27,384 nucleotides of DNA from a virus, in IMG/VR virus record IMGVR_UViG_3300032046_000177, positions 1 to 27,384 of that record. One strand, given 5' to 3'. Positions 3,442 to 24,147 of this stretch are shown here, piece after piece. Within the stretch, counting starts at the first letter, position 1, and every line of letters begins with the position of its first letter. Under the pieces are notes generated by a model that made no database searches, was not told where the DNA came from, and was given only the letters and a program-made list of their open reading frames with translations. Position numbers and translations under genes: made by a program.

Positions 3442-4991
3442 ACTATGATGAAATCGCAGCAACCCAATCAATACTGAAGTTCCTGGATTATTATCATATA
3501 ACCAACGATCAAGGGCAGGAGCTGGATTTCAAGGATCATGAGTACATGTGGGATGTTTATAGCGACTTCTCTCCAAAGATAGCGGTGTTAAAAGCGGCAC
3601 AGATAACCGCATCAACCTGCTTCAATCTCAAAGCCTTATGGCTGGCGAAGAATAAAGGGATGGACATCATATACTCCCTGCCTTCTTCATCGGATATTAA
3701 GGACTTTGTGTCTGGAAAGACAAATAGGTTGATAACCAATAACCCGATTCTTCAGGAATGGACCATAGACAAGGATTCAATCGAGCAGAAGAAAGTAGGC
3801 AGCAACGTAATCTACTACCGAGGCACGTGGACCGAGCGGGCCGCAATAGCCATACCTGCTGACCTTTACATAAGCGACGAGACGGACAGATCCAAGCAGG
3901 ACATAGTGGCTCAATACAGGACCAGACTCCAGCATTCAAAGTACGGCTGGGAATGGTATCTCTCAAACCCCTCGGCACCAGGAGTAGGAGTGGACAACTT
4001 CTGGGCGATATCCGACCAAAAGCATTGGTTTGTTAAATGCGGATGCGGAGAGTGGCAGTTCATGACAATGGACAACATTTTAAACAGAGAGGGGAGTTAT
4101 TACTTCGGATGCAAGAAGTGCGGCAAGGAAGTTGACAGGCATCACGGCAAATGGGTAAGGAAGTACAGCGACAGAAAAGACGTGTCAGGATACTGGATCC
4201 CGTTATTGATAGCACCAAGACGCACGGCTCAATATATTATTGACAAGAAGAAGGAATACAACGACGAGCAGTTCGCCAACTTCGTGATGGGACAGCCGTA
4301 CATCGGGAGAGGAAACGTGCTGACAAAAAACGCTTTCTTCCAGAACTTAATAAACAAAATCAACCCACAGGACACACGGACCATAATCGGAGTGGACACG
4401 GGAGTGGGAATAAACTACGTGGTAGGGAACAGCAACGGGATATTCTTCTACGACAAGTCGGACGGATACGAGCCAATAAGGAGTCTGCTTTTACGATGGA
4501 AGAATGCGATATGCGTAATAGACCAGGGGGGAGATATCATCGGGCCACGTAAATTAAGGGAAGAGTTCCCGAACAGGGTGTTTCTGTGTTTCTTCAGGCA
4601 GGATATGAAGAATGATGAGTTCATGCGTTGGAAAGACGAAGAAGGCACGGTGATGGCGGACAGGAATAAGATGATCCAGCTTGTAGTGGATGAGTTCACG
4701 GAGAAAAGAATACCTATCTGGGGAAGCGAGAACGAGTGGTACGATTACTGGCTGGAATGGGCGGGGATGTACAGATCCGCAGAAGAAAACCAGCTAGGAG
4801 TGCCAGTATACAAGTGGAACAAGCCGTCATCGGGGCGTTGCGATTATCCGTTCGCTACGGTATATTGGCGTATAGGCATTGACAGGTTTATGGAAAATGT
4901 TGCGACATTTCATGAGCCGAAAGGGGATCAGTTCGCATACACAGGGATAGAAGTGACCCCAGACAATAAGGCGTTCCTCCCCAAGAGATAA
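3438..4991 (+). CDS. terL: terminase large subunit, GpA-like
   Basis: 517 aa. The ATPase part has a deviant Walker A, K-A-A-Q-I-T-A-S-T (52-60), comparable with the deviant motif of lambda gpA, and a Walker B ending YISDE (144-148). A zinc knuckle follows with C201, C203, C225 and C228. The C-terminal nuclease has the RNase-H-like acidic residues D320 (IIGVDTG) and D362 (CVIDQGG). This is the GpA-like terminase layout: ATP-driven translocation of DNA into the prohead through the portal, and DNA cleavage by the nuclease. Residues 272-283 (KEYNDEQFANFV) are encoded by a 37-bp stretch that is repeated exactly at 8737-8773. The stop lies just before a phage promoter element. Confidence 0.9.
   Translation: MNYDEIAATQSILKFLDYYHITNDQGQELDFKDHEYMWDVYSDFSPKIAVLKAAQITASTCFNLKALWLAKNKGMDIIYSLPSSSDIKDFVSGKTNRLITNNPILQEWTIDKDSIEQKKVGSNVIYYRGTWTERAAIAIPADLYISDETDRSKQDIVAQYRTRLQHSKYGWEWYLSNPSAPGVGVDNFWAISDQKHWFVKCGCGEWQFMTMDNILNREGSYYFGCKKCGKEVDRHHGKWVRKYSDRKDVSGYWIPLLIAPRRTAQYIIDKKKEYNDEQFANFVMGQPYIGRGNVLTKNAFFQNLINKINPQDTRTIIGVDTGVGINYVVGNSNGIFFYDKSDGYEPIRSLLLRWKNAICVIDQGGDIIGPRKLREEFPNRVFLCFFRQDMKNDEFMRWKDEEGTVMADRNKMIQLVVDEFTEKRIPIWGSENEWYDYWLEWAGMYRSAEENQLGVPVYKWNKPSSGRCDYPFATVYWRIGIDRFMENVATFHEPKGDQFAYTGIEVTPDNKAFLPKR
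4251..4287 (+). repeat. 37-bp exact direct repeat, terminase-gene copy
   Basis: This stretch inside terL, beginning AAGGAATACAACGACGAG, is identical over 37 bases to 8737-8773 in a small gene downstream. It encodes residues 272-283 of the terminase and is read in the same frame in both genes. Flanking bases differ on both sides. Confidence 0.95.
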
Positions 4992-5028
4992 ATATCCACA
5001 TAGATTTAACCGACAAATAGTGTAAAAT
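4991..5028 (+). promoter_or_regulatory. phage promoter, copy 1 of 5
   Basis: AATATCCACATAGA at 4991-5004 is followed, 19 nt after its TAG, by a TAAAAT -10 box at 5023-5028, with AAATAGTG just upstream of the -10. Four more copies with the same spacing occur at 7323, 13881, 16690 and 21175. The upstream block covers the -35 region but does not resemble TTGACA. It lies 3' of terL and 24 nt before the ATG of the first small tag gene. Confidence 0.72.
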
Positions 5029-5052: not shown

Positions 5053-5289
5053 ATGACAGAACAAGAATCGTTTGATAAATCCAACAGAGAGTTTCAGGAA
5101 CGTAAAGCAAAAGATCCTGAATCAAAATTCATTTCAGGGTATAGTAAGTTTCACTTGGGAATTGCGAAATCAAAAAAGAAGATGGCAGAGAAAATGGCTC
5201 CAACTGCTTCTCACAAAAAATATCTAAGAAGATTAAAAATCGCATTGCTCCCTTACAAAAGGCCGATGAACATTCGATGGAAGAAGTAG
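5053..5289 (+). CDS. small Lys-rich tag-family protein, C-terminus altered by a duplication
   Basis: 78 aa, starting MTEQESFDKSNREFQERKAK, first gene after promoter copy 1. No SD is visible. It carries KKKMAEKMA, the A-x-K-M tag found in the small genes at 7368-8778. From 5239 the coding sequence is a 50-bp segment identical to 23942-23991 in the glycosyltransferase-methyltransferase gene, but read here in a different frame (KIALLPYKRPMNIRWKK). The original C-terminus was therefore probably replaced. Function is unknown. The A-x-K-M sequence and position beside the portal tie it to the other small genes. Confidence 0.62.
   Translation: MTEQESFDKSNREFQERKAKDPESKFISGYSKFHLGIAKSKKKMAEKMAPTASHKKYLRRLKIALLPYKRPMNIRWKK
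5239..5288 (+). repeat. 50-bp exact direct repeat, copy in small gene
   Basis: The segment beginning ATCGCATTGCTCCCTTACAA is identical over 50 bases to 23942-23991. The bases on either side differ between copies. It is read in one frame here and another in the downstream copy, so the similarity is at DNA level and recent. Confidence 0.95.
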
Positions 5290-7322: not shown

Positions 7323-7360
7323 AATATCCCCATAGAATAAAGGTCAAATAGTAGTAAAAT
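7323..7360 (+). promoter_or_regulatory. phage promoter, copy 2 of 5
   Basis: AATATCCCCATAGA at 7323-7336 and TAAAAT at 7355-7360, with the same 19-nt spacing as the other copies and the shared TAGTAG before and ATACACA after the -10. The ATG of the next gene is only 7 nt past the -10, so the transcript should be leaderless or nearly so. A TTGACA at 7294-7299 lies upstream, but no good -10 stands at 17 nt from it. This promoter would drive the small-gene cluster. Confidence 0.75.
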
Positions 7361-7367
7361 ATACACA

Positions 7368-7655
7368 ATGAAAAAGGAGCAGTTAGCAAAAAAGATGGGC
7401 AAGAATAAAAAAAGTGCCGAATATTATCACAAAGGGTCTGGTTCTTGTTACAAATTACATGGAAAAGAGTTAATTCAATACCCAGCAAATCGTGGCGGTG
7501 GTTATGATAAGGGAGAAGGAGGAAGTGTTGATTGGGGAAACGTTGATAAATCAGAACATCCAGAGCTAAGAAAGATCTATAAGAAGTTGGGTGGAAAGAT
7601 GAAGAATATCAATTACGGAAAACTTATGGTCGGACCAGAAGATATAAAAAAATAA
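7368..7655 (+). CDS. small tag-family protein (95 aa)
   Basis: The N-terminus is MKKEQLAKKMGK, an instance of the shared tag. The rest is Gly/Lys-rich, with YHKGSGSCYKLHGKELIQYP and ANRGGGYDKGEGGSVDWGNV, and a second K-M-K stretch near residue 78. No family is recognised. It is the first gene behind promoter copy 2, with its ATG 7 nt after the -10, and is followed one base later by the next small gene. Charge and small size suit a nucleic-acid-associated or head-internal protein (inference). Confidence 0.72.
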   Translation: MKKEQLAKKMGKNKKSAEYYHKGSGSCYKLHGKELIQYPANRGGGYDKGEGGSVDWGNVDKSEHPELRKIYKKLGGKMKNINYGKLMVGPEDIKK

Positions 7656-7656
7656 C

Positions 7657-7896
7657 ATGAAGAAGAAAGATGTAGCCAAGAGAATGAAGTTCGATCGCAA
7701 AAGATTTGTGATAGACAGATATCCTGGGGACAAAGACGAAGCACCAGGCTACACATTATATGACAAAAAATGGGACGCAAGCGATTTGCTTGATACCAAA
7801 AAAGCTGCAAAAGAAAAAGCCATGCAATGGCAGAAAAGGGAACATCACCCAAATACAGGATACTTAAGATGGCTCAAAGACGAGATAGGAAACTAA
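7657..7896 (+). CDS. small tag-family protein (79 aa)
   Basis: Starts with the tag MKKKDVAKRMK. The rest, FDRKRFVIDRYPGDKDEAPGYTLYDKKW then a helical DTKKAAKEKAMQWQKREH, looks like a small folded domain but I cannot name it. One base separates it from the upstream stop (TAACATG), and the same TAACATG arrangement follows. No SD is present. The tag differs at many synonymous positions from those of its neighbours, suggesting conservation of the peptide and not of recent DNA copies. Confidence 0.72.
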   Translation: MKKKDVAKRMKFDRKRFVIDRYPGDKDEAPGYTLYDKKWDASDLLDTKKAAKEKAMQWQKREHHPNTGYLRWLKDEIGN

Positions 7897-7897
7897 C

Positions 7898-8038
7898 ATG
7901 AAAAAACACGATATAGCTAGAAAGATGAAACCAAAATTATCGCAAGTCAGCAAGGAATACTTCGGTGGTAAATGGCAGAAAGTTGGATTTTATGAAAATG
8001 ATAAAGGAAAAATAGTTAAAGTAAAACCAATAAAATAA
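7898..8038 (+). CDS. small tag-family protein (46 aa)
   Basis: A short gene in the same tight run: TAACATG on the left and TAACATG on the right. The product is MKKHDIARKMK followed by about 35 residues including EYFGGKWQKVGFYENDKGK. The N-terminal tag is the clearest argument that this frame is translated, since the tag recurs in the adjoining genes in different codons. Function is unknown. Confidence 0.65.
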   Translation: MKKHDIARKMKPKLSQVSKEYFGGKWQKVGFYENDKGKIVKVKPIK

Positions 8039-8039
8039 C

Positions 8040-8195
8040 ATGCCACTCACAAAAAAAGGAGAAAAAATCAAATCAGCCATGGAGAAAGAATACGGATCCA
8101 AGAAAGGAGAGCAGGTTTTCTATGCCTCAGAGAACAAAGGTACAATAAAGGGCGTAGCAAAAAAGAAACATGAGGTAGCGAGGAAAATGAAATAA
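8040..8195 (+). CDS. small tag-family protein (51 aa), tag at C-terminus
   Basis: The product MPLTKKGEKIKSAMEKEYG then KKGEQVFYASENKGTI resembles a small protein type frequent in phage head regions (KEYG-KKGE-VFYAS-NKG). It ends KKKHEVARKMK, placing the tag at the C-terminus. The spacing to both neighbours is one base. The mixture of a known-looking small domain with an appended tag suggests that the tag is a module added to different proteins. The domain's function is not known to me. Confidence 0.68.
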   Translation: MPLTKKGEKIKSAMEKEYGSKKGEQVFYASENKGTIKGVAKKKHEVARKMK

Positions 8196-8196
8196 T

Positions 8197-8430
8197 ATGA
8201 AAGATAAAAGAAGTAAATTTGCATGGGGAAAGGCATTGGCTCTCCGAGAAAAAGAGCTTAGTTCAGATAAGTATTGGGCTAAAGTTGGAGAAAAAAAGAA
8301 AGAAGTCGCAAAGAAGATGAAGAAAGATTATCATGTAGGATTAACCCATTATTCTTCCCGCCATGCGTATAGAAAAGCAAAAAGAGAAACAGATGAAGGG
8401 ATAGAATCCATAACCAATCCTCACGATTAA
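8197..8430 (+). CDS. small tag-family protein (77 aa), internal tag
   Basis: Starts MKDKRSKFAWGKALALREKE and carries KKKEVAKKMKK in the middle (about residues 33-43), followed by DYHVGLTHYSSRHAYRKAKRETDEG. The segment after the tag is His/Tyr-rich and unlike its neighbours, so the tag may join two parts. No known family is recognised. It begins one base after the upstream stop, without an SD. Confidence 0.68.
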   Translation: MKDKRSKFAWGKALALREKELSSDKYWAKVGEKKKEVAKKMKKDYHVGLTHYSSRHAYRKAKRETDEGIESITNPHD

Positions 8431-8432
8431 AC

Positions 8433-8621
8433 ATGAACAAATCCATCCCCCATTTGATAAAAGACGAGAAGCAGGCTATAAATGATTATGCCGACTCGGC
8501 ACAAGAGATTAAACACACAGAAGCTAAGGGAAAGTTCAGACACATAAGAAAAGAAGAAATCCACCACAAAAAAGAGCTTAAAGAACTAAAAAACAAGGTC
8601 GCAAGTAAGATGAAACAATAA
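8433..8621 (+). CDS. small ferritin-like helical-hairpin protein with C-terminal tag (62 aa)
   Basis: Two helices are visible: the first has E12 and Y19 (LIKDEKQAINDYADSAQEI), the second has EEIHH at 41-45. The spacing E...Y plus E-x-x-H is that of one half of a ferritin/rubrerythrin-type di-iron site, as in small half-ferritins that dimerise. The C-terminus is KNKVASKMKQ, the shared tag. If it binds iron it could protect packaged DNA from oxidation, but no iron binding is shown here and the motif is short. Its position inside the tag cluster suggests the same destination as its neighbours. Confidence 0.65.
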   Translation: MNKSIPHLIKDEKQAINDYADSAQEIKHTEAKGKFRHIRKEEIHHKKELKELKNKVASKMKQ

Positions 8622-8622
8622 T

Positions 8623-8778
8623 ATGGCAAAGAAAAAAGAAGATAAAAAAGAAAAAGAGGAAGAGAAGAAAGAATCCAAACTCAAAGAAAAGAAAGAGCAT
8701 GTGGCGGGGAAGATGAAGAAGAAACATCCTAGAATAAAGGAATACAACGACGAGCAGTTCGCCAACTTCGTGAGTTGA
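8623..8778 (+). CDS. small tag-family protein ending in a terminase fragment (51 aa)
   Basis: The product is MAKKKEDKKEKEEEKKES, a charged helix, then KKEHVAGKMKKK (the tag), then HPRIKEYNDEQFANFVS. The last part is encoded by a 37-bp stretch identical to terL 4251-4287 and read in the same frame, so residues KEYNDEQFANFV copy TerL 272-283. The frame stops two codons after the match ends. This looks like a tag gene whose 3' end was replaced by a piece of terL. It might also come from an assembly join. Confidence 0.62.
   Translation: MAKKKEDKKEKEEEKKESKLKEKKEHVAGKMKKKHPRIKEYNDEQFANFVS
8737..8773 (+). repeat. 37-bp exact direct repeat, copy in small gene
   Basis: Identical over 37 bases to 4251-4287 in the terminase gene and read in the same frame. 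It forms the 3' end of the small gene at 8623-8778. A distance of about 4.5 kb separates the two copies, with the portal gene between them. Confidence 0.95.
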
Positions 8779-8779
8779 C

Positions 8780-8848
8780 ATGAAAAAAGTAGACTGGAAA
8801 GGAGTGTTTGATAAAGCAGAAAAATTGCACGAAGAAAAATATAAATAA
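8780..8848 (+). CDS. micro-gene, 22 aa
   Basis: ATG one base after the previous stop (TGACATG). The product is MKKVDWKGVFDKAEKLHEEK plus YK, an amphipathic helix without the A-x-K-M tag. It keeps the tight spacing of the run, but at 22 codons a chance frame cannot be excluded. Seen only as the last member of the small-gene cluster. Confidence 0.35.
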   Translation: MKKVDWKGVFDKAEKLHEEKYK

Positions 8849-8895: not shown

Positions 8896-9717
8896 ATGGT
8901 TCATGGTCATCCAGGAAAACTTGTAAATAGTATGGCAGATGTAAATTTAAATGCACCAGCCTTCGGTGAAGGGGCTCAGAAGCCCGAGGATCTGGTGGAC
9001 GGCAATGTTCCAGTTGGGACAGAGTCGGAAGAAGAGGAGGTCGAGGAGACGCCTGAACTCCCAGTTGAGGAGAACAAAGTCCCCTACTCAAGGTTCAAGA
9101 AGTTCCATGATCAAGCTCTGGATGCCACAAAAGAGGCAGAAGTTCAGAGAGCTCGTGCGGACTATTTTGAAGAAGCCTTGAGGACAAGCAGAACAGCGGA
9201 GGAACCAGCAGGGGAATCGTCAGCTTGGGATGCTTGGAAAGAGCTTTATGGGGATTCAGAGGCATCAATAAAGGCCTGGAAGATCCAACAAAGCATCAAT
9301 GAATCAATCAAACAGGAGGCCAGACAGGAGGCTATTGAGGCTGTAAGGAGCGAAAGGTTGGAGGAATCAAGTCGAGTTAGGGACAATATCAAGCAAATAA
9401 ACTCGAACTTTGAGGATTTGTCGGCTATGTTAGGCAGGGATTTGACCGAAAGGGAACAATCCACACTGCTCGATATAGTGGATGATTACACATCAAAGGA
9501 CGAGGACGGAAATTACATTGGAGCGATACTTCCTTTCGATAAGGCTTGGGAAATCTACGAACTCAAACAAGGAGCGACCGAAGCTCCCAAAAAGCAATCA
9601 AGAGACAACGTGGCTTCGTTGATTGGTTCAAAAACACACGGTGAGACCAGCATGACGGCCGAAAAGGACAAGAACTTCAATCCGTTGGACTGGGACGCCT
9701 ACAAAAAAAGGGTCTAA
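8896..9717 (+). CDS. scaffold-like acidic head protein
   Basis: 273 aa, acidic, with helical repeats (EEEEVEETPELPVEE, then RFKKFHDQALDATKEAEVQRAR and QEARQEAIEAVRSERLEESS). An acidic N-terminus plus coiled helices directly upstream of the major capsid gene is the usual position and composition of a scaffold, which guides prohead assembly and then leaves. No protease motif is seen. A second in-frame ATG at 8932 (MADVNLNAPAFGEG) is an equally good start. A TAATAT six bases before 8896 would allow a leaderless start there. The C-terminus (DWDAYKKRV) is basic, as scaffolds use to touch the capsid protein. Confidence 0.72.
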   Translation: MVHGHPGKLVNSMADVNLNAPAFGEGAQKPEDLVDGNVPVGTESEEEEVEETPELPVEENKVPYSRFKKFHDQALDATKEAEVQRARADYFEEALRTSRTAEEPAGESSAWDAWKELYGDSEASIKAWKIQQSINESIKQEARQEAIEAVRSERLEESSRVRDNIKQINSNFEDLSAMLGRDLTEREQSTLLDIVDDYTSKDEDGNYIGAILPFDKAWEIYELKQGATEAPKKQSRDNVASLIGSKTHGETSMTAEKDKNFNPLDWDAYKKRV

Positions 9718-9745: not shown

Positions 9746-9889
9746 ATGGCATTTAATAATGTCGTGGATACGATTACTCTTGAAGAAATCATTCCACGAG
9801 TTGTTGATACTGTATTGAGAAGTAATAGGTTTGCGACAAAGATGCTTTCTAAAACAAAGCGTTTCGGAGCCGCAACCATGGATTTCCCT
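9746..9889 (+). CDS. major capsid protein, exon 1 (codons 1-48)
   Basis: ATG at 9746, no SD. Encodes MAFNNVVDTITLEEIIPRVV and on to GAATMDFP, the N-arm of an HK97-fold capsid protein. The exon ends at T9889 in codon phase 0, fixed by pairing of AUUUCCCU with the intron guide GGGGAAAU (U.G at the splice site). Without splicing the frame runs on only to the TAA at 9908-9910, giving a 54-residue fragment. Joined to 10536-11420 it makes a 342-aa protein, a usual size for this family. Confidence 0.85.
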
Positions 9890-9961
9890 AAAATCTTTAT
9901 GGGGAAATAAAATTCTCTCTGATAAGGGGAATGCTGAAATTGCTAACCCCTTCCAAGCATA

Positions 9962-9990
9962 TTGACAGTTGGGAAATAAAAGAGTATAGT
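9962..9990 (+). promoter_or_regulatory. sigma70-type promoter inside the intron
   Basis: TTGACA at 9962-9967, 17-nt spacer, TATAGT at 9985-9990. The endonuclease ATG is 7 nt further on, so the message would start at or next to the start codon. Unlike the five phage promoter elements, its -35 is the standard hexamer, so the intron gene may be expressed by unmodified host polymerase. Confidence 0.7.
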
Positions 9991-9997
9991 TTGGTTC

Positions 9998-10456
9998 ATG
10001 AAACAAAATAAATTAACCAAATTATCGTACATGGCTGGGTTTTTTGACGGAGAAGGTTGTGTAGGAATACTTAAACACAAGAAAGAAACCGCTCAAAGTC
10101 CATCTTATTATGTCTATGTTTCTATTGGACAAAGAGATGGAACAATTATGGAATGGATCAAAGGAAACTTTGGAGGTAGAATATACAAAGTAAAAAGAGA
10201 TGGCAGTTACCAATGGGGAATGTCAGACAGGAAAGCGTATGAGTTCTTAAAGAAAATAACACCATTCCTTAAATACAAAAAACCACAAGCCGAATTAGCA
10301 ATTAGATTCACGGAAAGAGTGATACATGAAAGGGGAAATGAAAAAAGATTTATACAATTATCTCCACATGAAATTAAAATAAGAGAAGAAATATACCAGA
10401 AGATGAAATTGCTAAAGAAAATGTTTTCTGAACCTAAGTCAATAATGCAGGAGTAA
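9998..10456 (+). CDS. LAGLIDADG homing endonuclease (intron-encoded)
   Basis: 152 aa with one LAGLIDADG motif, SYMAGFFDGEG, at residues 10-20, followed by CVGILKHKK and the beta-rich YVYVSIGQRDG...FGGRIYKVKRDG..YQWGMSDRKAYEFLKKI layout of the family. Single-motif enzymes act as dimers and cut the intronless allele at a long site, so that repair copies the intron in. The probable target is the capsid gene around codons 48/49 where this intron sits. The gene lies in the P6 loop of the intron, and its last codons (10445-10451) also form the 3' strand of P6. The TTGACA-17-TATAGT promoter just upstream implies expression apart from the capsid gene. Confidence 0.88.
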   Translation: MKQNKLTKLSYMAGFFDGEGCVGILKHKKETAQSPSYYVYVSIGQRDGTIMEWIKGNFGGRIYKVKRDGSYQWGMSDRKAYEFLKKITPFLKYKKPQAELAIRFTERVIHERGNEKRFIQLSPHEIKIREEIYQKMKLLKKMFSEPKSIMQE

Positions 10457-10535
10457 CGACTAAGCGAGAGAACACCGAAAGGTGATGCGATAGTCTGAAC
10501 TTACATAAACAAAAAGTGTAAGATTAACAAAATTC

Positions 10536-11420
10536 ATAAAGTATCAAATCGGAACAGCAATCCAATCCTTCTTGGGATTTGATGCATTACCAACGAGTTT
10601 CACGGACACTCGCGTACTCATGAAGTACAATCCAAGATTCGTGGCGGCTAACGTTGCGTTAGCTGGCACAGACATCATCGCAAACAATACCGCAGCGAAA
10701 GTGCTTGATCTTACGAAAGTAGAAATGCAATCAAGAGCTCAAGACTTGGCTGATGGACTAGGAACAATGCTTTGGGGTGATGGCACTGGAAACGCTGGAA
10801 AGGACTTGCTTGGACTAGGAGCAATCGTTGACAATGGAAGTACTGTTGCAATCATCGGGGGTCTTTCAAGAAATGTGTATACCACATTGAAGTCAACGGT
10901 AACCGCAGCTGCTACCTTGTCGCTGGCCACTATGCGTACCCTATGGAATGCAATCGCAGATGCGACAATCGCACCCACCAGAGCGTATACTGACTATCCG
11001 ACATGGGCATTATTTGAACAACTTCTGCAACCGCAGGAGAAAATCTTCAAAGAAGTGAACATCGTTCCCAATTATAAGGGATACGAGGGATTCGCTGGCC
11101 TTATGTATGCAGGTATGGAAATTGTACCCGACAGAAAAGCGACCGCAGGTCAAATGGTCTTCTTAAACGAGGACTTCGTTGATTTCTACGGTCTTGACAC
11201 CGACTTAGAACAATTTGAAGGAGCAAGGAAGGTTGATGTTGCTGGAAAATTGTTCGCAGGAAACCAGTATAATGAAGTTGGAAACTTAGGTTTCTATTGG
11301 ACTGGTTTCATTAAAGTAAACACACAGTTTGCCTTTAACTCGTTCATAATTCTTGGCGGTAATCTTTGTACCGACAACCCGAGAAGGCATGGAAAACTTA
11401 CTGGAATAACTGGAGTTTAA
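10536..11420 (+). CDS. major capsid protein, exon 2 (HK97 fold)
   Basis: Begins ATA AAG TAT CAA (IKYQ) in frame with exon 1. Encodes GFDALPTSFTDTRVLMKYNP, VLDLTKVEMQSRAQDLADGLG, LWGDGTGNAGKDLLGLGAIVDNG and IGGLSRNVYTTLKS, a run typical of HK97-type capsid proteins of metagenomic phages, and ends in GKLTGITGV. The start cannot be the TTG at 10572, because the reading frame and the guide pairing continue to 10536. The protein forms the hexamers and pentamers of the head. Codon use here is richer in ATC, GGT and GCT than in neighbouring genes, as fits a highly expressed gene. Confidence 0.9.
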   Translation: MKYQIGTAIQSFLGFDALPTSFTDTRVLMKYNPRFVAANVALAGTDIIANNTAAKVLDLTKVEMQSRAQDLADGLGTMLWGDGTGNAGKDLLGLGAIVDNGSTVAIIGGLSRNVYTTLKSTVTAAATLSLATMRTLWNAIADATIAPTRAYTDYPTWALFEQLLQPQEKIFKEVNIVPNYKGYEGFAGLMYAGMEIVPDRKATAGQMVFLNEDFVDFYGLDTDLEQFEGARKVDVAGKLFAGNQYNEVGNLGFYWTGFIKVNTQFAFNSFIILGGNLCTDNPRRHGKLTGITGV

Positions 11421-22707: not shown

Positions 22708-24147
22708 ATGGCAAAAATAGGCGGAGTGATTGGAGTCCCCTCCTTGGGCATGGTTTCAACACATTTCTTAGGTGCGAGAGCCATGCTCCAGGGAGACTTA
22801 GGCCTCAGTTGGGTTGATAAGATAGTCTTGGACGAAGAGATGAGGTCATTGGGAAAACCGACCGATGTCGGTTCAAAAAAGCAATACATAGCAGAATATG
22901 CAATAGAACAGGGTGCGGATTGGGTTCTATACATCGATGATGATGTTATCTTCCCACCGAACACATTGATTAAACTTCTCCACAGGAATAAGGATATAGT
23001 CGGAGGAGTCTATTGGTCCAAGTCAGAACCCCCAGTGCCTTTGATATTCAAAGGACACATGCAGGGAACTTACAGGGACTGGCACGCAGGAGACTTCATT
23101 AAGGTTGACGCCATGGGAATGGGTCTAACCTTGATAAGGACGAAAGTATTCAAGGCAATGGAGAAGCCTTGGTTTACGTTAGATTATACCTACCAAGAAG
23201 CCGAGAATAGAACAACGAAAGATTACGGAACAACAGAGGATTTGTACTTTTACAAGAAAGCCAGAGACCACGGGTTTGAAGTCTGGTGTGACACGTCTCT
23301 ACAGGCGTGGCATTACGAAAAAAATACCAAACAAATGTTTGGAATACAGAATGACTTTCCTCAAGCAATCGCTGGTTCGGACTTAAAACCAAGAGGAAAG
23401 AAATTGATAGCGGACATTGGGTCAGGAGAACACAGTCCCTACTTCCCAGAAGGAATTCCAGTCAGAATGGACATAAGGGAAGAGGTTAAACCCGACATAG
23501 TCTGTGATGTAAGAAGTATTCCTGAACCAGATGAGAAATACGACATAGTATTTTCATCACATACGTTGGAGCATTTTTCTCACAAAGTAGTTGATGTTGT
23601 GCTGAGAGAATGGACAAGGATACTTAAGATAGGTGGAGAGTTAAGATTGATACTTCCGAATCTTGAGTTTGCTTGTGACAGCATAATAAAGAGCAAAGGA
23701 GAAATTGATTACAATGCAATCAATATTCTCTATGGAGAACAGACCTATCCGAAGAACTTCCACGCTTGCGGATTTACCCAGAAGACTTTAGCGAGATTAT
23801 TAGAAAAGATGGGATGTTTAAAAGATATATTAGTTGTCTTTGATGGACCCAAATATAATCTTCTTGCCAGTGCAGTTAAGTATAAAAAGACAAGACTCTT
23901 TGAGTCTATACATCCAAGTTATTCGCTCAAAGGAGGAATGCATCGCATTGCTCCCTTACAAAAGGCCGATGAACATTCGATGGAAGAAGTAATGTTTAAA
24001 CAAAACGATGTCTTACGAAAAAGAGGAAAGGGCAATCTTCAATTATCTGACAAACGACATAAAAGGGCTGGAAAGAAAAACAAAGATAAAGTTAAGAGAC
24101 ACAAGACTCACTCCAGCACATCTAGCACGAGTAACATTACTCTTTAG
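22708..24147 (+). CDS. glycosyltransferase-methyltransferase fusion (479 aa)
   Basis: Residues ~1-215 form a GT-A type glycosyltransferase: ADWVLYIDDDVIFPP with the DDD metal/nucleotide motif at 77-79, and GTTEDLYFYKKARDHGFEVW for the acceptor side. Residues ~230-400 are a class I SAM methyltransferase with motif I LIADIGSGEHSP, acidic MDIREEV, and VFSSHTLEHF (283-290) typical of type 11-like enzymes, then LREWTRILKIGGELRLILPN. The two together could add and methylate a sugar on phage protein, DNA or host surface polymer. The C-terminal tail after residue ~411 is encoded by the 50-bp repeated stretch and then basic low-complexity sequence. The last 140 nt overlap the next gene in another frame, so the true end may be earlier. 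Confidence 0.85.
   Translation: MAKIGGVIGVPSLGMVSTHFLGARAMLQGDLGLSWVDKIVLDEEMRSLGKPTDVGSKKQYIAEYAIEQGADWVLYIDDDVIFPPNTLIKLLHRNKDIVGGVYWSKSEPPVPLIFKGHMQGTYRDWHAGDFIKVDAMGMGLTLIRTKVFKAMEKPWFTLDYTYQEAENRTTKDYGTTEDLYFYKKARDHGFEVWCDTSLQAWHYEKNTKQMFGIQNDFPQAIAGSDLKPRGKKLIADIGSGEHSPYFPEGIPVRMDIREEVKPDIVCDVRSIPEPDEKYDIVFSSHTLEHFSHKVVDVVLREWTRILKIGGELRLILPNLEFACDSIIKSKGEIDYNAINILYGEQTYPKNFHACGFTQKTLARLLEKMGCLKDILVVFDGPKYNLLASAVKYKKTRLFESIHPSYSLKGGMHRIAPLQKADEHSMEEVMFKQNDVLRKRGKGNLQLSDKRHKRAGKKNKDKVKRHKTHSSTSSTSNITL
23942..23991 (+). repeat. 50-bp exact direct repeat, glycosyltransferase-gene copy
   Basis: Identical over 50 bases to 5239-5288. Here it encodes HRIAPLQKADEHSMEEV in the frame of the fusion gene; upstream it is read in another frame. 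It lies where the conserved methyltransferase sequence ends. Confidence 0.95.

Follow-up and report, generated by a model that had tools for sequence, protein, structure and literature searches.

The window analysed here is the whole of an IMG/VR virus record of 27,384 bases, one of a group of uncultured tailed phages. Its genes include those for a partial GroEL-like chaperonin, a GroES-like protein, a DNA methylase, a terminase, a portal protein, seven small proteins, a scaffold protein, and a major capsid protein (MCP), after which come an SU10-type adaptor and other genes (Table 1). The GroEL-like (partial) and GroES-like genes (6-1250) adjoin the terminase; groEL is also annotated near the terminase in MW202566, a distant portal relative. 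The split MCP gene was identified through its unsplit counterpart in the relative L164, which matches the major head protein family phrog_9953 (E 8e-44). A similarly placed split interrupts the gene in L003, L089, L198, and L199, the other relatives have it whole, and an Rfam search of the window, including the split gene, gave no intron match. For the scaffold gene, comparison with relatives suggests a start at 8932 and not at 8896. The structure model of its product (mean pLDDT 77) is helical nearly throughout, and a fold search with this model gave no match under E 0.001. An untagged reading frame of 22 codons, MKKVDWKGVFDKAEKLHEEKYK, occupies 8780-8848, between the last of the seven small genes and the scaffold gene.

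Table 1. Features around the portal and scaffold genes of the window; tags are given with their cores in parentheses
Feature	Position	Strand	Tag and its place	Remark
Tagged 78-aa protein	5053..5289	+	KKKMAEKM (MAEKM), internal	Upstream of portal; final 50 bp duplicate 23942-23991 exactly
Portal protein, 637 aa	5375..7288	+		phrog_156 portal, E 5.4e-9
Promoter-like element ATATCCCCATAGA-N-TAGTAAAATATA	7324..7363	+		Directly before the cargo island; first half in 5 copies in the window
Tagged 95-aa protein	7368..7655	+	KKEQLAKKM (LAKKM), N-terminal	
Tagged 79-aa protein	7657..7896	+	KKKDVAKRM (VAKRMK), N-terminal	
Tagged 46-aa protein	7898..8038	+	KKHDIARKM (IARKMK), N-terminal	
51-aa EYGxKKGxxVFYASxNKGTIKG protein	8040..8195	+	KKHEVARKM (VARKMK), C-terminal	
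Tagged 77-aa protein	8197..8430	+	KKKEVAKKM (VAKKMK), internal	
62-aa ferritin-like protein	8433..8621	+	LKNKVASKM (VASKMK), C-terminal	Coat_F E 4.4e-4
51-aa Lys/Glu-rich protein	8623..8778	+	KKEHVAGKM (VAGKMK), internal	37 bp near 3' end identical to terminase 4251-4287
Acidic helical scaffold protein, net charge -24	8932..9717	+		Alignment A5, structure model, charge
MCP gene, split in two by a LAGLIDADG endonuclease gene (9998-10456)	9746..11420	+		

The sequence ATATCCMCATAGA occurs five times in the window, at 4992, 7324, 13882, 16691, and 21176, versus 0.08 occurrences expected. All five copies lie a short way ahead of a gene start, and those inspected stand about 20 bp upstream of a TAAAAT-like box. 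The sequence is probably the phage's own promoter, one copy of which heads the run of seven small genes between portal and scaffold, called the island below. Two exact duplications also fall within the small genes. The 3' end of gene 5053 (5239-5288) is repeated in another frame within a glycosyltransferase/methyltransferase gene (22708-24147); this 50-bp copy may be a genuine micro-duplication or may have arisen as an artefact of assembly. The 37 bp at 8737-8773, the end of gene 8623 (KEYNDEQFANFV), match the terminase gene in frame. Because both copies lie at 3' ends, the protein ends of 5053 and 8623 are doubtful; comparable long copies were sought in the other islands of the window's lineage (lineage A, defined below) and were not found.

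The initial annotation had described a short peptide with an A-x-K-M core in all seven island genes and in gene 5053, and all eight copies are present where it placed them. The pattern [VILM]A.[KR]M was then counted in the translated products and compared to its frequency in composition-preserving shuffles. In the window island it was found in 7 of 7 proteins versus 0.03 expected, and none of 2,000 shuffles reached 7; an unsupervised 9-mer search of the same island recovered the tag with z = 8.1. Head-gene homology yielded 24 related loci, not counting the window, and of the 106 proteins that they encode between portal and scaffold, 47 carried the pattern versus 0.73 expected (maximum of 6 in 2,000 shuffles). 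Elsewhere on the same contigs it was present in only 3 of 258 ORFs of at least 100 aa and in 9 of 206 small ORFs outside the islands. Seven of these nine, including window 5053, are directly upstream of the portal gene, and tagged genes thus bracket the portal (further examples are L090:1752, L091:8546, L092:3315, L098:6208, L100:9822, and L169:3223). The shuffles and the small ORFs elsewhere rule out chance in Lys-rich proteins as the source of the pattern; the initial annotation had named a chance-level frequency in such proteins as grounds for abandoning its claim, and the shuffles, the other small ORFs, and the relatives all speak against such a frequency. These results confirm that the tag recurs.

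Not every island protein is tagged. A third or more of those in the relatives (41 of 113, by a loose definition) have no recognisable tag, including zinc ribbons, acidic PVE-rich proteins, YxMxG repeats, and the His-phosphatase of L192, and the tag fades in the more distant members L101, L193, L195, and L205. Tiny acidic Pro/Val/Glu-rich and zinc-ribbon proteins were seen in islands of both lineages described below (L101, L107, L198, L206, L295, L297, L322, L339, and L344); they are almost never tagged and may form a separate functional class.

A profile built from 72 tagged proteins reads K(-4) K(-3) x x [MIV](0) A(+1) x K(+3) M(+4), often with a hydrophobic residue at -7, that is, 7 residues before the core. 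The A-x-K-M core is therefore present as initially described and is better written K-K-x-x-[MIV]-A-x-K-M. Its A (63 of 72) and M (65 of 72) are kept almost as strictly as Lys. The tag stands at the N-terminus in 18 of the 72 proteins, at the C-terminus in 17, and internally in 37, and each protein has exactly one copy (70 of 70). When the tags of one phage were compared with each other, the same codon was used at 220 positions, versus 242.8 expected from island codon usage. Tag codons are thus shared no more than by chance, so it is the peptide that is conserved and not the DNA, as had been proposed, and this comparison rules out a DNA repeat or duplication as the origin of the tag. The profile would suit a short amphipathic helix.

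The proteins that carry the tag differ from each other outside it, as the initial annotation held: with the tag masked, they fall into about 50 unrelated families. Most of the small proteins could not be usefully named from Pfam, PHROGs, or NCBIfam. Among the families are a histidine phosphatase (L164:9077-9679; Pfam E 1e-30) with the tag in a 14-residue N-terminal extension, two ferritin-like proteins (window 8433 and L168:3533), a protein weakly like a fragment of Mu F/SPP1 gp7 (L090:4560), and carriers of the small phage domains EYG..VFYAS and KQAVAIA. An untagged His-phosphatase in L192 is 41% identical to that of L164 and begins at the M that forms the last residue of the tag; in the His-phosphatase structure model, residues 1-16, the tag region, have low confidence and so do not bear out a helix. 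The EYG..VFYAS domain of window 8040 is widespread in untagged phages. For control phages with the same EYG..VFYAS or KQAVAIA domains, 3 of 73 runs gave z > 3, all 3 from tagged lineages, versus 4 of 183 control runs. Same-domain phages from elsewhere thus have no shared island tag, and the carrier domains were rejected as its cause.

The tag also marks the places at which these proteins have been recombined. In L002:5721 the tag precedes a domain that in L090:5738 comes ahead of the tag. The phages L090 and L091 are near-identical (98.6% in the portal region), and the DNA of their first island gene is identical through GCTAAAAAGATGAAGAA, the end of the tag, and unrelated beyond it. In the gene upstream of the portal the arrangement is reversed, with DNA unrelated up to KK-x-IAKKM and nearly identical after it. 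These phages have swapped protein halves with DNA breakpoints at or inside the tag. Genes sharing one half only were also found among L003, L098, and L100, between L090 and L206, and between L104 and L206, and the number and identity of island genes vary even between near-identical phages.

We examined a second group of loci, from a sister portal lineage, lineages A and B being defined by head-gene homology only and the 80 loci of lineage B being fetched by portal homology alone. The lineage B islands have a different tag, typically AKSKALKxK, with the general form A-[KR]-[STG]-[KE]-A-L-[KE]-x-K (tag B). In the islands of lineage A, to which the window belongs, tag A (the peptide described above) was found in 70 of 163 proteins and tag B in 6 (3.0 expected). 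Lineage B islands had tag A in 1 of 175 proteins (0.9 expected) and tag B in 64 (3.7 expected; maximum of 11 in 1,000 shuffles), a count that is somewhat inflated, the pattern having been written after the lineage B islands were viewed, while the near-background cross-counts are unaffected. With the tag masked, tag B proteins form 41 families, and about 20 cargo families are common to both lineages. Within these shared families, lineage A had 36 sequences with only tag A and 2 with only tag B, and lineage B had 0 and 32, respectively (Fisher p about 6e-18, which overstates the case because sequences are not independent events; the family numbers, 50 and 41, are the sounder measure). Single cargo families show one tag or the other according to lineage. 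Proteins with GEKxAPVKSxKLKVKF end in KKEIAKKM (L164) or KEKLARKM (L192) versus AKSEALKKK (L307) or AKTKALKGE (L344); MWDWMDKxEGR is followed by KKSIAKKM in L091 versus VRTKALEKK in L295; KVGEGKSH..IYKH is preceded by KKIAEKM in L098 versus ARKEALKNK in L334; and the EYG..VFYAS domain carries tag B in lineage B. A third related form, QLSALKNKM, was recovered by unsupervised motif search in L117 (z = 8.3), and the variant Q[LM]xA[LIM]KxK is present in L117, L122, and L147. By these counts, tag type follows phage lineage and not cargo family.

The nearest named phage is TM7 phage DolZOral124_53_65, from a dolphin-mouth Saccharibacteria sample, with 25% portal identity; the tagged island is absent from this phage and from record MW202566. 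One relative belongs to a bin with a listed size of about 1 Mb, which no more than hints at small-genome hosts, and a search for 16S in bin L206 as a guide to host identity found none.

Taken together, these results strongly support a role for the peptide as a functional address tag on otherwise unrelated small proteins. The initial annotation had proposed that it sorts cargo into the prohead. The families, the swaps at the tag, and the tracking of lineage bear out a shared sorting tag, and the head as its destination is a step that we infer. Sorting to the prohead is the most economical reading, given the position between portal and scaffold, basic cargo (all positive in the window, net +6 to +11) next to a scaffold that is acidic, the fast turnover of cargo, and the presence of ferritin-like proteins and enzymes among the cargo. 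Our best overall explanation, which we consider probable, is that small proteins of diverse and exchangeable kinds are recruited to the assembling head by a lineage-specific docking helix. For a peptide that stands at any position in any protein, in one copy, in a head-gene neighbourhood, and that changes with lineage while the cargo stays, the simplest account would be a docking tag recognised by a head protein of its lineage. The peptide would be a short amphipathic docking helix that serves as an address, each lineage having its own version, and small accessory proteins from the genes around the portal would each bear one copy, at either end or inside. During assembly, the tag would be bound by a lineage-specific head component, with the acidic scaffold as the first candidate and the portal or capsid interior as the second. 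Such binding would concentrate the cargo inside the prohead, and the cargo would leave with the DNA at infection. Cargo genes would turn over fast and cross lineages, a newcomer being kept in the form that has the lineage's own tag. The scaffold is placed first because its strong negative charge lies beside positively charged cargo and because T4 internal proteins reach the scaffold core by means of short propeptides (PMC9026906). A complementary motif for the tag was sought in the scaffold and not found.

Among known systems, T4 provides the closest parallel. There, short N-terminal propeptides, cleaved by gp21, target unrelated proteins to the core (PMC9026906). As in the T4 capsid-targeting sequence of IPI, IPII, IPIII, and Alt (PMC9026906), a peptide of about 10 residues is found here on otherwise unlike small basic proteins, the cargo varies fast between related phages, and binding to the scaffold core, which occurs in T4, is what we propose. 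Unlike the T4 sequence, which is N-terminal and cleaved, the tag is N-terminal in a minority of proteins and otherwise internal or C-terminal. Peptidase_S78 prohead protease was detected neither in 8 virus records, which may be incomplete, nor in the L206 bin, although the controls were positive, and a search for S77 protease was run without a positive control. This negative result for S78 fits an uncleaved tag. The T4 literature examined offers no counterpart to a pair of dialects on shared cargo. On our best reading, the tag would be an analogue of the T4 capsid-targeting sequence that is position independent and, as far as tested, uncleaved.

The T4 core genes 67, 68, and 21 lie between the portal and scaffold genes, whereas the ip genes are not known to lie there. 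The argument from T4 gene order made in the initial annotation is therefore looser than it was put there, and what stands is a functional parallel only. P1 DarB is a further precedent, in which an N-terminal signal of 30 residues is enough to direct a reporter into the capsid; DarB is one large protein, and the portions of that report consulted describe no family of tagged small proteins (PMC9024508). In giant phage SPN3US, N-terminal segments are believed to draw a variety of ejection proteins into the prohead, but several of these propeptides exceed 100 residues and are cleaved (PMC5694885), whereas the tag is of about 10 residues and position independent. Encapsulins resemble the present system in having an HK97-fold shell of viral origin, a small targeting peptide, and ferritin-like or enzyme cargo (PMC8346489, PMC10960027). 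Among NCBIfam models, the best match of window 8433 is the EncB family, but its 26.6 bits with EncB_fam are far under the cut-off of 90 that would place it among encapsulin cargo, and the shell here is not an encapsulin but a phage major head protein accompanied by portal, terminase, and scaffold. A literature search found no description of such tags.

Several other roles for the tag were weighed against docking to the assembling head. Tagged proteins might attach to the portal or neck and serve there as structural or gatekeeping subunits, not as internal cargo, which would suit a portal flanked on both sides by tagged genes and a tag type predicted by portal lineage. We think this unlikely, since gene numbers and identities differ between near-identical phages, unlike those of structural neck proteins, and ferritin-like proteins and enzymes would be odd parts of a neck. 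It is less likely still that the tag's destination is a host target or a compartment made by the phage, the portal neighbourhood reflecting late expression only. Phosphatase and zinc-ribbon cargo would suit host take-over, but the tag type tracks the head-gene lineage despite shared cargo, and the genes lie among head genes and not early genes. For short Lys-rich motifs in general, binding to nucleic acid or membranes is also possible, and we counted this against the head-docking reading, together with the untagged island proteins and the fading of the tag in distant members. In a separate rival account, the tag would be a basic nucleic-acid-binding helix whose proteins compact DNA in the head without a specific protein receptor. 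Lys makes up 19.6% of island residues versus 9.8% in other small ORFs, and the window cargo is uniformly basic, yet A and M are conserved nearly as strictly as Lys, there is one copy per protein, Lys-preserving shuffles fail to yield the tag, and the lineages use differing but fixed sequences; we regard this role as improbable. The location of recombination breakpoints at the tag and its purine-rich DNA could point to a translated nucleic-acid element, such as a recombination site, a ribosome-binding site, or an RNA signal, but synonymous codons are not shared and the peptide is what persists, making this explanation very improbable. Chance or common descent, whether in Lys-rich small proteins or in duplicated genes sharing one segment, would fit Lys-rich proteins encoded in tandem but is contradicted by the shuffles, the codon comparison, the many otherwise unrelated families, the varying tag position, and the domain that moved across the tag, and we give it almost no weight.

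Tailed-phage lineages may run private address codes for virion cargo, a proposal to which we give slightly better than even chances: the cargo pool would circulate, newcomers would be kept with the tag helix of the lineage, and each lineage's tag helix would be matched to its own head receptor, making the cargo exchangeable but not the dialect. Were such a code true, only the right lineage's receptor should read the right tag, as the two dialects on shared cargo imply. The tag also suggests a position-independent packaging label, which a reporter fusion could test, and the swaps at the tag reveal how phages exchange accessory proteins. Small genes of unnamed function beside portals make up a large share of phage dark matter, and a readable tag marks, from sequence alone, which of them probably travel together, perhaps into the virion.
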